Part shown: one piece after another, positions 7,300-31,446 of the stretch
Numbering within the stretch: the stretch's first letter is position 1
Layout: each line of letters begins with the position of its first letter
Origin: Minisyncoccota bacterium
Lineage (GTDB): Bacteria > Patescibacteriota > Minisyncoccia > UBA6257
Direction: 5' to 3'
DNA length: 43,902 bases
Assembly (NCBI GenBank): GCA_028719125.1
Contig: JAQUKM010000001.1
Span: forward strand, 30,757 to 74,658
Program-made: the position numbers and the translations under genes
The notes under the pieces: model-generated
The model's input: only the letters and a program-made list of their open reading frames with translations
Databases searched by the model: none
What the model was told of the DNA's origin: nothing

Positions 7300-7676
7300 G
7301 GGGATGACGGGATTTGATAAAAAGAACTTTTTAAAATAAGCAAGCCGAGGAATTCTTGTTAGCTCGTAAAAACCAAGAAGGCATCAATTAAATGCCAATC
7401 AAAGACTTGCTTATGCTTATGCCTAATCGCTAAGCATAAGCCATTCCCTTTTAAAAGGGAAATTCTTTGGGCAGATTCTCAATAAGCCTAAAGGATAAAA
7501 AACATTGAGATAGATTGGTTTTTAGCTTTTCCGACCAAAAACCAATTGAATTCTATTCGGAAAACTTTAAGGAAGGTTTGTTCATTTTACCTCTTAAAGA
7601 AATAAAAAATGGAATAAGCTTGTAGGATTATTTTAAAAAGCCTTTTTAGACGTGGGTTCAACTCCCACCTTCTCCA
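7300..7676 (+). ncRNA. ssrA: transfer-messenger RNA (tmRNA)
   Basis: One-piece tmRNA of about 377 nt. The 5' end GGGGATG pairs with CTTCTCC (7669-7675) to form the acceptor stem, with discriminator A at 7676 and no encoded CCA. The T arm is GTGGG-TTCAACT-CCCAC (7652-7668). Helix H2 is a perfect 13-bp pairing of 7327-7339 with 7628-7640. The tag frame ends in helix H5: an 11-bp stem (7409-7419 with 7431-7441) has its stop TAA (7424-7426) in the loop, the standard arrangement. Reading back, the tag is A-N-Q-R-L-A-Y-A-Y-A if GCC at 7394 is the resume codon. The exact resume codon is inferred, not proven. It lies between smpB and infC. Confidence 0.96.
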
Positions 7677-7681
7677 CTCTA

Positions 7682-26408: not shown

Positions 26409-29312
26409 ATGGAAGATTTAACTAAAAAAAGGGAGGAAAAAATAAAAGCTCTCTGGCAAGAGTCCAAAGAAAGAGTAGCTCAAGAATTAGCAACTCAACA
26501 AAATTATTTATATATTGATTTAAGGAAAACGCCAATCGAAACAAGCGCCCTGTCTCTTATTCCGGAACAAACTGCAAAACAAGCTAATGTTGTTGTTTTC
26601 CAAAAAATAGGCAACAAAATTAAAATTGCCGCTTTAGACCCTTCAAATCTTGAAACTTTAAAAGTGATTGCCGATTTGGAAAAACAAGGTTATAAAGTAA
26701 GTATTTTCGTCGCCACTCAAGAAAGTTTAAACGAGGCTTGGAAAAACTATACCCTTGTTCACCATCGCCCCAAAGAACTTTCAAATTTTATAGAAATTAC
26801 CGAGACTGAACCAGTAGAATTTAACGACCTCCACCAAAAACTTTTATCCTTACCCAGTGAAGAAGTGACATCTCTCGTCTCCCTTATCTTAAAATCAGCA
26901 GTCATTATTGACGCCTCTGATATTCATATTGAGCCCCAGGAAGAACAAGCCTTAATCCGTTTTCGGGTAGACGGAGTGCTTTATGATGTCTCGGAAATAG
27001 ATAAAAGGAAATATGAGGTAATCAATCAAAGATTAAAACTGCTGTCTGGCCTAAAATTAAACATCAAAACAATCTCCCAAAATGGCCGTTTTACTATTCA
27101 AAACAATCAGGATTTTATTGATGTCCGCGCTTCCAGCCTTCCCGGTCCCGAGGGAGAATTTCTCGTTTTTCGGCTTTTAAATCCCCGTCGAACTGCTTTA
27201 GGCCTAAAAGATTTAGGCATCCGTGAAAATAATATTGAAACCTTTGAGCGTATTCTCTCAGCGCCAAATGGAATGATTCTCATCACCGGCCCTACTGGTT
27301 CTGGTAAAACAACAACTCTTTACGCTTTTTTAAAAAGAAAAGTTTCCCCGGGAATTAAAATTATTACTATTGAAGACCCGATTGAATACCATATTCCCGG
27401 CGTAAACCAAACCCAAGTATCCAAAAAATACGATTTTGCCAATGGCTTAAAGTCAATTCTTCGCCAAGATCCGGATGTTCTTATGATAGGCGAAATGCGG
27501 GACGCAGAAACGGTAAAAACAGCCATTCAAGCATCTTTGACCGGCCATCTAGTTTTTTCCACTCTTCATACAAACGAGGCCTGTGGTACTATTAATCGTT
27601 TAAAAGAGCTTGGAGCTGAAACTCCCATTATCTCCGGCTCCCTCAAATTAGTTATTGCCCAAAGATTAATAAGACGTCTCTGCCCTTATTGCAAAGAGCA
27701 ATACGAGCCAAGCCCGGATATTAAAGAACAATTAATAGAAGCCCTGAGCATCCTTTCGCCAAAAAGCCAAGTTAAAATTCCTAAAGATATCCCGCCTCTT
27801 TTTAAGGCAAAGGGATGTGAGAAGTGCCATTGGCTTGGCTACAAAAACCAGATAGGAATCTTTGAATATTTTATAATGACTCCCCGTATGGCTAGAGCGA
27901 TTGAAGAAGAAGCTGACCAAAATAAATTGAGAATTATCGCTATTGATGAAGGGATGGTGCCGCTCTTCCATGATGGTTTGATAAAAGCTATTGAAGGCAT
28001 TACTTCTTTAGAGGAAATAATCAGAGTCGCCGGTGATATCTCTTATATTCAAGAACTTTACAAGGAGCTCTTTTCCCAAATTTTGGTTCGTGGGGTAAAA
28101 GTCAGCGCCCAAGAACTGAAACAAATAGAGAAATTGCTTCAAGAAAACAAACCTCTCCAGCCCTTATTAAAAGATAAATCTTCAGAAAGACAAATTGGTT
28201 TGATTTTAGCAACTGCTTTAAAATCAAGAGCCACTGATGTCCATTTTGAACCCGAGGAAAAAAACAGCCAAGTAAGGCAAAGAATTGACGGCGTCCTCCA
28301 TCCATTAGTCTCCTTTGACGCCAGAGAGCATCCAAAAATTATTAATGAATTAAAAAACCTCAGCGGCCTTGCAACCGAAGAAACCCAAAAAGTTCAGGAG
28401 GGAAGGTTCCGCTTGATTCTACCTGATAAATCATTTGACCTCCGTCTTTCAATCGTTCCCGGCGGATACGGGGAAAGCGCCTCTTTGAGAATATTAGGCG
28501 GGGAGACCGCTATTTTGGATCTGGAAAACTTGGGATTTCTTTCTCCTCAGAGAGAAAAAATAGAAAAAGTTTTAGAAAAAAAAGTTGGCCTTATTTTAGC
28601 AGCAGGCCCGACTTCTTCTGGAAAAACCACTACCCTATTCTCTATTCTTAAAAAATTAGCCAAGCCCGACGTCAAAATCATTACGGTTGAAGACCCAATT
28701 GAATATCGCTTGCCAAACATTATCCAAACTCAAATTAACGAAGAAAAAGGCTATACTTTTGCCAAAGCCCTGCGCAGTTTGCTCCGCCAAAATCCAAATA
28801 TTTTCTTAATTGGGGAAATTAGAGATGAAGAAACGGCCGAACTTGTTTGGCAGGCATCATTAACTGGCCACCTGGTTCTTTCAACAATTCATACCAATGA
28901 TGCTTTGGGAGCCTTATCGCGTTTAGAAACTTTAGGGGTTCCTTCGCAAAAATTAGTTTCCAATATCAATGTTATTATTGCCCAAAGGCTTGTTCGTTGC
29001 CTTTGCCCTGGCTGCAAAAAGAAAATAAAAATCCCAAAAGAAATTACGCCTTTGATTAAGCAAGCTTTGAAAAAATTTCCTGAATATAAAGAGCTCAAAC
29101 AAACTGAATATATCTACGAGCCAAAAGGTTGCCCTCAATGCAGCTTTACCGGCTACCAAGGTTTAGTTGGCATTTTTGAAATCTTAATTCCGCCTTCTGG
29201 AGAAAAAGACCTTTCAAAAGTAGATTTTCCCAAATTAATAGACGACGCCATTATTAAATTGCTTCAAGGCGTCACTTCCTGGGAAGAAATTCAAAGAGTT
29301 TTAGGGATATAA
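26409..29312 (+). CDS. tandem-fused PilB/GspE-type secretion ATPase (two complete ATPase modules)
   Basis: A 967-residue protein with two type II/IV secretion ATPases in one chain. Residues about 40-120 resemble the MshEN/GspE N-domain. Module 1 has Walker A GPTGSGKTT (294-302), Asp-box segment ITIEDPIEYH, Walker B LMIGEMRD (358-365), STLHTN (384-389) and a four-cysteine zinc knuckle (C425, C428, C470, C473). Module 2 repeats all of it: GPTSSGKTT (733-741), ITVEDPIEYR, FLIGEIRD (799-806), STIHTN (825-830) and C866, C869, C908, C911. Both look catalytically competent. Typical PilB/GspE has one module (about 550-600 residues). No other pilus or secretion genes are in the window. I infer a pilus or competence-type assembly motor. 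Confidence 0.93.
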   Translation: MEDLTKKREEKIKALWQESKERVAQELATQQNYLYIDLRKTPIETSALSLIPEQTAKQANVVVFQKIGNKIKIAALDPSNLETLKVIADLEKQGYKVSIFVATQESLNEAWKNYTLVHHRPKELSNFIEITETEPVEFNDLHQKLLSLPSEEVTSLVSLILKSAVIIDASDIHIEPQEEQALIRFRVDGVLYDVSEIDKRKYEVINQRLKLLSGLKLNIKTISQNGRFTIQNNQDFIDVRASSLPGPEGEFLVFRLLNPRRTALGLKDLGIRENNIETFERILSAPNGMILITGPTGSGKTTTLYAFLKRKVSPGIKIITIEDPIEYHIPGVNQTQVSKKYDFANGLKSILRQDPDVLMIGEMRDAETVKTAIQASLTGHLVFSTLHTNEACGTINRLKELGAETPIISGSLKLVIAQRLIRRLCPYCKEQYEPSPDIKEQLIEALSILSPKSQVKIPKDIPPLFKAKGCEKCHWLGYKNQIGIFEYFIMTPRMARAIEEEADQNKLRIIAIDEGMVPLFHDGLIKAIEGITSLEEIIRVAGDISYIQELYKELFSQILVRGVKVSAQELKQIEKLLQENKPLQPLLKDKSSERQIGLILATALKSRATDVHFEPEEKNSQVRQRIDGVLHPLVSFDAREHPKIINELKNLSGLATEETQKVQEGRFRLILPDKSFDLRLSIVPGGYGESASLRILGGETAILDLENLGFLSPQREKIEKVLEKKVGLILAAGPTSSGKTTTLFSILKKLAKPDVKIITVEDPIEYRLPNIIQTQINEEKGYTFAKALRSLLRQNPNIFLIGEIRDEETAELVWQASLTGHLVLSTIHTNDALGALSRLETLGVPSQKLVSNINVIIAQRLVRCLCPGCKKKIKIPKEITPLIKQALKKFPEYKELKQTEYIYEPKGCPQCSFTGYQGLVGIFEILIPPSGEKDLSKVDFPKLIDDAIIKLLQGVTSWEEIQRVLGI

Positions 29313-29350
29313 CCTACAACTTATTTTAACAATATCTTTGCCTTGGGTAT

Positions 29351-29520
29351 AAAAAAGGCCCATTAATCTGTAGGCAAAACCCTCCAAATTATGGAGATAA
29401 AAGATTAACCCGAGGTATATTTGAGGCGCCGAAGCGTCTAAAATACCCATCTGCAGAAAATCCCCTTGCAAGCATAAGCGCTTGCGTGCCCACAGATTAA
29501 TAGACCTTTTTCAAAACCCT
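29351..29520 (-). ncRNA. structured non-coding RNA of unknown family (6S-like size)
   Basis: A transcript of about 170 nt between convergent genes. It is preceded by a consensus promoter and ends in six U residues directly after its closing stem. That stem is 19 continuous pairs (29488-29506 with 29357-29375, including G-U). Inside are a hairpin GCAAGC/GCTTGC on the 5' side, a long apical hairpin capped by TTCG (GGTAT...ATACC), and a small hairpin CTCC/GGAG on the 3' side. No signature of SRP RNA, RNase P or tmRNA is seen. The long rod with a central open region and the size recall 6S RNA, but this assignment is only a hypothesis. Confidence 0.75.
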
Positions 29521-29527
29521 AAGACGT

Positions 29528-29556
29528 ATTATAATATACTAATTTTATTTTGTCAA
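29528..29556 (-). promoter_or_regulatory. perfect consensus sigma-70-type promoter of the ncRNA
   Basis: On the minus strand there is TTGACA (29551-29556), a 17-bp spacer, then TATAAT (29528-29533): both hexamers are exact consensus. Expected start near 29520. No open reading frame follows; the structured RNA does. Confidence 0.88.
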
Positions 29557-29572: not shown

Positions 29573-31117
29573 CTATCTGGCTATCTCAATCGCTCTTGTC
29601 TCCCGAATAACCGTTACCTTTATTTCTCCAGGGTATTTTAAAGTTTCTTCCAAACGATTAGCTATATCCTTAGCCAATTTAACAGCCTCTAAGTCGTCTA
29701 TTTCGTCCGGCTTCACAAAAACCCTAACTTCTCTTCCCGCGGAAATAGCATAAACTCTCTCTACTCCCTCATAAGAAGAAGCTATTTCTTCTATATTGGC
29801 TAATCTTTTAAGATAGGCCTCTATGGAATCTCTTCTCGCTCCAGGCCGCGAAGCGGAAATAGCATCAGCCGCATTAATTATCGCCGCTTCTATCGTCTCT
29901 ATTGGATAAGTATCATGATGGGATTGCATCGCTTTTATAATTTCTTCCGGTATATTATATTTCATTAATATCCGCCTGCCTAGCTCTAAATGAGTCCCTT
30001 CTATCTCCTGATCCACCGCTTTCCCAATATCATGAAGCAATCCAGCTTTTTTGCTTATTTCAACGTCCGCGCCTAATTCTGAGGCTAAAGCCGCTGCTAA
30101 TAAAGACACCTCTATTGAATGTGTCAAAGCGTTCTGACCATAACTAGTTCTAAAGTTTAATCTACCCAATAAATAAACCAATTCCTGAGGCAGATCCAAT
30201 ATGCCCACCTCATAAAGAGCATCCTCTCCAGCCTTTTTAATTCTTTCTCTCACTTCTGACTGGGCTTCTGTGATTTTCTCCTCTATTTTCGCCGGCTGAA
30301 TCCTCCTGTCTTGAATTAATTTTTCCAAAGCCACCTTCGCCACTTCTCTTCTCGCAAGGTCAAAGCTTGAAAGAACGATTGTATTTGGAGAATCATCCAT
30401 TATTAATTCTACTCCTGTTAACTTTTCAAAATGACGAATGTTTCTTCCTTCACGACCGATAACCTTACCTTTAATATCCTCTGAAGGTAAGTTTATTACT
30501 GTTGTTGTTACCTCGCTAACAGTAGAACGGCTGTACTTTTGAATTGCCTCAACCATTATTTCCTTTGCCCTTTTCTCCAATTCTTCTTTCCTTACAGTTT
30601 CCAATTTTTTTAAGGATTCTAAAGTTTCTTCGCTATTTTCTTTTTCTATCCTTCTAAACAATTCTTCTTTTGCCTCTTTTGAAGATAATCTTGCGATTTT
30701 TTCCAACGCATCCAGCTCACTTTTCTGAATTTCCTCTAATTCTAATTTTAATGATTGAATCTTTTCAAAAATCCTTTGGTTTTCTTTTTCTTTATCACTC
30801 AATTCAATTTGCCTTTTATCCAACAACTCCTCCCTCTGTAGCAACCTCCCCTCCATTTTATCCAACTGAGTTTTCCGGGCTTTATTTTCCTTCTCTATCT
30901 CTTCTAAAACTTGCGTTGCTTTTTCTCTAGCTTCCAAAATAATTTTCTTTGCTTCTTCTTGAACTTTTTCTATCCGAGCTTTTAATTTTGATTCTATTGA
31001 ATCAGATGATTTTTGGGCAATTATCTGGCGAACTATATAACCCAACAAAGCGCCGAGACCCACTGAAAGCATAATCATAACACTCATCGGAATATCAAAA
31101 ATATTAAACATAGCCAT
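29573..31117 (-). CDS. rny: ribonuclease Y
   Basis: Membrane-anchored endoribonuclease that initiates mRNA decay. An N-terminal transmembrane helix (about 10-32) is followed by a long charged coiled coil (about 40-190). The KH domain contains GKVIGREGRNIRHFEKLTG, and the HD domain contains ALTHSIEV and LLHDIGKAVD. The C-terminus ends with IKVTVIRETRAIEIAR. The length (514) is standard. Starts at ATG 31117 (an ATG two codons further in is possible). A strong promoter lies nearly 300 bp upstream, so the mRNA probably has a long leader. Confidence 0.97.
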   Translation of the reverse strand: MAMFNIFDIPMSVMIMLSVGLGALLGYIVRQIIAQKSSDSIESKLKARIEKVQEEAKKIILEAREKATQVLEEIEKENKARKTQLDKMEGRLLQREELLDKRQIELSDKEKENQRIFEKIQSLKLELEEIQKSELDALEKIARLSSKEAKEELFRRIEKENSEETLESLKKLETVRKEELEKRAKEIMVEAIQKYSRSTVSEVTTTVINLPSEDIKGKVIGREGRNIRHFEKLTGVELIMDDSPNTIVLSSFDLARREVAKVALEKLIQDRRIQPAKIEEKITEAQSEVRERIKKAGEDALYEVGILDLPQELVYLLGRLNFRTSYGQNALTHSIEVSLLAAALASELGADVEISKKAGLLHDIGKAVDQEIEGTHLELGRRILMKYNIPEEIIKAMQSHHDTYPIETIEAAIINAADAISASRPGARRDSIEAYLKRLANIEEIASSYEGVERVYAISAGREVRVFVKPDEIDDLEAVKLAKDIANRLEETLKYPGEIKVTVIRETRAIEIAR

Positions 31118-31418: not shown

Positions 31419-31446
31419 ATTATAGCAAAAATACACACTTTGTCAA
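31419..31446 (-). promoter_or_regulatory. strong promoter of the rny leader
   Basis: Minus strand: TTGACA (31441-31446), a 16-bp spacer, then TATAAT (31419-31424) with TGC before it (extended -10). The -35 overlaps the -35 of the divergent gpmI promoter. Confidence 0.82.

Follow-up and report, generated by a model that had tools for sequence, protein, structure and literature searches.

A structured RNA family of the Paceibacterota without an Rfam match, encoded convergently with pilB

Stand-alone structured RNAs are as such already known, and several of them offer a comparison for the RNA described here. The nearest analogue in kind is Ms1 of Actinobacteria, a class-specific RNA-polymerase-binding RNA that is defined by its conserved gene neighbours (PMC9130861). 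6S RNA (RF00013) resembles our RNA in being a stand-alone RNA of ∼130–200 nt with a strong promoter, a long closing helix and a hairpin on the 3′ side before this helix. Bacterial SRP RNA (RF00169, RF01854) is likewise small, stable and structured, with a rod-like fold. Finally, tmRNA and RNase P RNA share with it the single copy and the housekeeping nature that we tentatively assign to it below; both are separately present in the same genome (tmRNA at 7300–7679, RNase P RNA at L234).

The RNA gene was found in the window, that is, the whole analysed stretch of 43,902 nucleotides from a bacterium that is ultra-small and uncultured, and occupies approximately positions 29351–29521 (∼170 nt) of the minus strand; the strand had not been given in the original prediction. 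The gene is identified by its fold, its homologues and covariation. An exact-consensus promoter TTGACA-17-TATAAT had been predicted here, and indeed both hexamers on the minus strand, −35 at 29551–29556 and −10 at 29528–29533, separated by a 17-nt spacer, match the consensus in 12 of 12 positions. The 5′ end of the RNA was set 7 nt past the −10 hexamer, and the 3′ end at a U6 tract (29351–29356, A6 on the plus strand), the presumed transcription end. In line with the prediction of a region without an open frame, the gap between the neighbouring genes pilB and rny contains no ORF reaching 80 aa; variation among the homologues follows the pairing, which likewise speaks against a coding or leader sequence. 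Downstream lies a convergent gene for a PilB/GspE-type ATPase (26409–29312, plus strand, 967 aa, Pfam PF00437 matching with E 3.8e-212 in two stretches), and upstream, the gene of RNase Y (rny, 29573–31117, minus strand, with the Pfam domains RNase_Y_N, KH and HD). The ATPase combines two T2SSE modules in tandem within a single chain; the RNA lies next to the second one. Exact promoter sites are rare in this DNA, as there are two in the window compared with 0.01 in shuffled sequences; the second one, TTGACA-N16-TATAAT at 31419–31446 of the minus strand, is upstream of rny.

The predicted minimum free energy of the RNA is −77.9 kcal/mol, compared with −43.7 ± 4.1 kcal/mol in shuffled sequences (z = −8.4; none of 200 shuffles as low). 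The fold is closed by a long helix, P1, whose 5′ strand (29513–29487) pairs with the 3′ strand (29350–29376), both strands showing compensatory changes among homologues; the closing stem had been proposed with 19 pairs and is longer, with 27. P1 encloses the three hairpins that had been seen in the sequence, all on the minus strand. P2 (29468–29485) is confined to the family of the window plus some further lineages. P3 (29399–29466) is the conserved core, backed by the covariation of a core model, and consists of P3a (29466–29459 with 29406–29399), an asymmetric internal loop, and P3b (29451–29434 with 29429–29412) with a UUCG cap (29433–29430), which corresponds to the TTCG cap noted earlier. 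P4 (29381–29397) shows compensatory changes in three of four pairs in each of the two architecture types described below. The U6 tract does exist; it comes after the GC part of the closing helix, and some of it pairs with the A-tract on the 5′ side.

DNA similarity identified homologues of the RNA in the genus and the family, and iterated covariance models extended the search. A model built from eight sequences (R1) found the RNA in 48 of 244 genomes of the order, and a model built from 13 type II sequences (R2), in 169 of 384 genomes of the class (Patescibacteria/Paceibacterota), with nearly always one match per genome. The core model (R3), applied to a phylum sample, matched 12 of 380 genomes, all but one of them in the class. 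The single match outside the class (G928, E 2.9e-4) is doubtful; no RNA match was found at its ruvB place. Scores on the sense strand are far above those on the antisense strand; we rejected an antisense reading, as the far lower-scoring matches on the other strand are due to the near-palindromic P1. The members are 130–200 nt long and form two architectures: type I, typical of the window's family, contains P2, and type II is without P2 and frequently shows one more hairpin after P4, with the P2 and P4–P5 regions varying in size among members. About half of the genomes in the class have no direct match to the models. In one genome of the same genus (G002), the apparent absence is explained by an assembly edge, since pilB there runs to the contig end. 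In the family f9 (G018, G041, G059, G075), we detected neither ruvB nor the RNA, and PilB/GspE-type genes are present.

The pairs of the proposed helices covary, as had been expected if the stems were real. Compensatory changes were found in 16 of 52 pairs of the type I alignment, in which 96% of cells are paired, in 26 of 50 pairs for type II, and in 18 of 22 pairs of the core model (67 sequences); for P1, the modelled pairs with such changes number 9 of 23 in type I and 12 of 22 in type II. In each of the three alignments, the covariation score is higher than in any of 500 shuffles or any slid control (0/500 shuffles reaching the score for type I, 0.491 vs. 0.230 in shuffles for type II, and 0.544 vs. 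0.278 for the core). When the partner is slid by one base, approximately half of the pairing is left in types I and II, and ∼60% in the core. The structures come from the same alignments, and the sequences were gathered with the models, which biases these counts towards structure; still, an artefact is unlikely because the effect is large and the alignments in which we counted were MAFFT alignments of the primary sequence. The core consensus, GGAAUUUUUCUUAG-n4-GGAUA..UGGYUNCGRCUGG..UUA(Y)UCCUCGGAAAAAUUCU, includes GG/CC pairs that never vary, together with a bulge and G-U pairs that are likewise fixed, features suggesting a candidate protein site in P3.

The signals of transcription are conserved along with the fold. 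A promoter with at least 10 of 12 matches is located just upstream in 90 of 108 members, and is exact in 27 of them, compared with 4.3% in shuffles and 9 of 108 on the opposite strand. The 3′ end is T-rich (at least six T in 8 nt) in 71 of 108 members, as opposed to 17% at random places. Thus, the conservation of promoter, fold and sequence across the class confirms that the RNA gene is real, and the reading of the locus as an independent structured RNA is borne out by covariation, promoter conservation and the class-wide occurrence. Judging from the promoter, the RNA is probably abundant.

None of the known families tested here includes this RNA. We scanned the window and nearly all the rest of its genome with 4227 models of Rfam 15 at the gathering threshold, and no family matched the RNA locus above its gathering score. 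The same nearly complete scan recovered tRNAs, tmRNA, RNase P RNA, and 5S, 16S, and 23S rRNA pieces, while 6S and SRP RNA were not found. A scan by E-value yielded a YenS match in the RNA region, which is a chance match (E 8.8), and no Rfam match at the RNA in 16 diverse relatives. We found no description of the RNA in the literature on non-coding RNA in Parcubacteria and Patescibacteria, although a prior description is possible, as most subscription journals were outside the search; a survey entitled “The discovery of novel noncoding RNAs in 50 bacterial genomes” does not mention these bacteria (PMC11109978). Taken with the covariation, the conserved promoter and the class-wide distribution, this upholds the suggestion of a new family, and we consider it almost certain that the RNA represents a real structured family without an Rfam match.

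The genomic address of the RNA is nearly constant. In 112 of 119 loci, it is convergent with a gene for a PilB/GspE-type ATPase, often a few bases from the stop codon, and in 92 of 119 it has a divergent ruvB on the other side; the 119 loci include two antisense or uncertain matches (L149, L042), to which we give no weight. Here, neighbours were grouped by BLAST from longest-ORF calls, making some distances approximate. The window is an exception, as only here is rny the upstream neighbour. The description of the RNA as sitting alone between convergent genes holds for the window, but the context across the class is different: the RNA points towards pilB and away from ruvB.

The constancy of the address enabled a blind test of pilB–ruvB gaps in 30 genomes, nearly all of which had matched neither R2 nor R3 (ruvB found in 24; of the 23 in the class, 19 with pilB within the retrieved stretch). 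With a lax threshold, R3 gave 13 matches in these seemingly RNA-negative genomes, and every one of the 13 fell into the gap on the upstream side of ruvB, on the strand that synteny had led us to expect. Most of the gaps with such a match also carry a promoter and a closed-stem RNA. In four further genomes with no or weak R1 match, the RNA adjoins a pilB paralogue. Therefore, the models underestimate the prevalence of the RNA in the class.

How might the RNA act? The computations show a sigma-70 promoter directed into a 130–200-nt RNA closed by the long P1 helix, in which the P3 core (an AU-rich helix, an asymmetric internal loop, and a bulged, UNCG-capped hairpin) is followed by P4 and, often, by a U-run end. 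Usually the RNA is encoded in a single copy at one address, convergent with pilB and, as a rule, divergent from ruvB. We propose that it acts in trans as a ribonucleoprotein, the internal loop and the bulge of P3 being the candidate protein site; its likeliest role, comparable to that of 6S, Ms1, or SRP RNA, may be to bind a protein of the cell and either regulate or scaffold it. A trans-acting, protein-binding RNA is the reading that we favour, with slightly better than even confidence. Because the linkage to pilB is retained, our best first guess for its function is control of the type IV pilus or of DNA uptake, although we doubt that the link to the pilus is functional more than we credit it. 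Somewhat less doubtful, yet still speculative, is a broader formulation, by which this is a class-defining housekeeping RNA of Paceibacterota and a part of an undescribed ribonucleoprotein that either serves type IV pilus or DNA-uptake control, or else takes over a job that stands vacant wherever neither 6S nor SRP RNA was detected.

The main rival is an RNA acting in cis, as an antisense or insulator: transcription against pilB and away from ruvB would control both genes by collision, by pairing with read-through mRNA, or by formation of the 3′ end. The extreme synteny and the nearly invariant orientation of the RNA agree with this, as does the fact that, in most genomes, its 3′ end abuts or overlaps the stop codon of pilB and its promoter abuts the start of ruvB. 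However, the fold is maintained where the arrangement is broken. Two genomes (G008 and G084) keep the RNA without an adjoining pilB, a third one (G010) probably does so too, at a contig end, and in G009 the RNA is flipped relative to pilB. The window's family has the RNA without ruvB; in the window's own genome, no convincing ruvB was found, a RuvB query giving only matches of 27–28%, and the RNA is kept. This persistence off pilB, in the inverted orientation, or without ruvB favours action in trans over purely cis antisense. Moreover, the compensatory changes preserve pairing within the RNA, which antisense pairing does not need. We thus regard the cis explanation as unlikely, while more plausible than the alternatives that follow.

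An RNA that binds RNA polymerase in the manner of Ms1, without being a homologue of 6S RNA, would agree with the class-specific occurrence, the synteny, and the strong promoter, and Ms1 was likewise found by synteny rather than by sequence (PMC9130861). On the other hand, our RNA lacks a central bubble; Ms1 belongs to another phylum and neighbours a HAD hydrolase gene, where our RNA has pilB and ruvB. We regard such a mode of action as improbable.

Even less probable is a divergent 6S RNA, an open-promoter mimic binding sigma-70 RNA polymerase, which the original prediction had offered as one of its two options. The size, the strong own promoter, the long rod-like closing helix and the broad conservation are indeed 6S-like, and the window's genome, scanned nearly in full, yields no match to the 6S model. 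However, the proposed search with the Rfam 6S model turned out negative: RF00013 matches neither the window RNA (E up to 10) nor 16 diverse members (E up to 1). The RNA has a conserved core different from that of 6S RNA and no open central bubble; in type II, P3 follows P1 after 0–8 nt, leaving no open 5′ bubble strand, and the pairing of P3a is backed by covariation. Furthermore, among the nine of 384 class genomes with an RF00013 match, seven (G058, G280, G317, G397, G414, G429, G561) also carry the RNA at a different place, and R2 does not match these separate 6S elements. One of the RF00013 matches in these seven genomes is above the cut-off, the only one among all nine, and the other six below it have 6S-like folds; those inspected show the 6S architecture, and several have promoters and terminators. 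These elements (L044 1487–1608 on G058:C8, and L091–L098; eight of the nine score under the Rfam cut-off) appear as divergent compact 6S RNAs in their own right, with which the 6S family would reach into Paceibacterota.

Finally, a divergent SRP (4.5S) RNA in a group whose SRP RNA goes unrecognised would fit the absence of RF00169 and RF01854 matches in all 21 genomes searched (the window's own and 20 relatives), but is extremely unlikely, as no tested member of the RNA family matches an SRP model, the core has neither a GNRA tetraloop nor the SRP helix-8 motif, and the partner domain on the protein side is itself seemingly lost in the window's relatives. In particular, the M domain of Ffh (PF02978) scored above the cut-off in none of 13 genomes, with all 14 controls positive; it is missing in 12 of the 13, and the window's own genome has a sub-threshold match in an 883-aa frame (G000:C1:18681–18851). 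This group seems to have a reduced SRP pathway, or to have lost it, and the RNA family draws notice to the missing SRP RNA and M domain of Ffh in the genomes that carry it.

The Paceibacterota (Parcubacteria) form one of the largest radiations of uncultured bacteria, and little can be spared in their genomes of about 0.5 Mb. A usually single-copy, strongly promoted RNA at one address throughout such a class implies an important function that is missing from the annotation. A covariance model, a defined strand, a promoter, and a syntenic handle make the question testable in metatranscriptomes.

Two further observations concern the window's genome. Its 3-kb contig G000:C30 carries a second copy of the RNA (L012 1501–1662, L268), which is 84% identical over 162 nt and has its own promoter, next to a pilB end that is 84% identical in protein; this may be a true duplication or come from a co-binned sibling species. 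In addition, the 23S rRNA matches in L260 (969–2277, contig G000:C22) are split, with model positions 2538–2602 followed by 2652–2912 some 770 bases further on, which suggests an intervening sequence or an intron in the rRNA gene.
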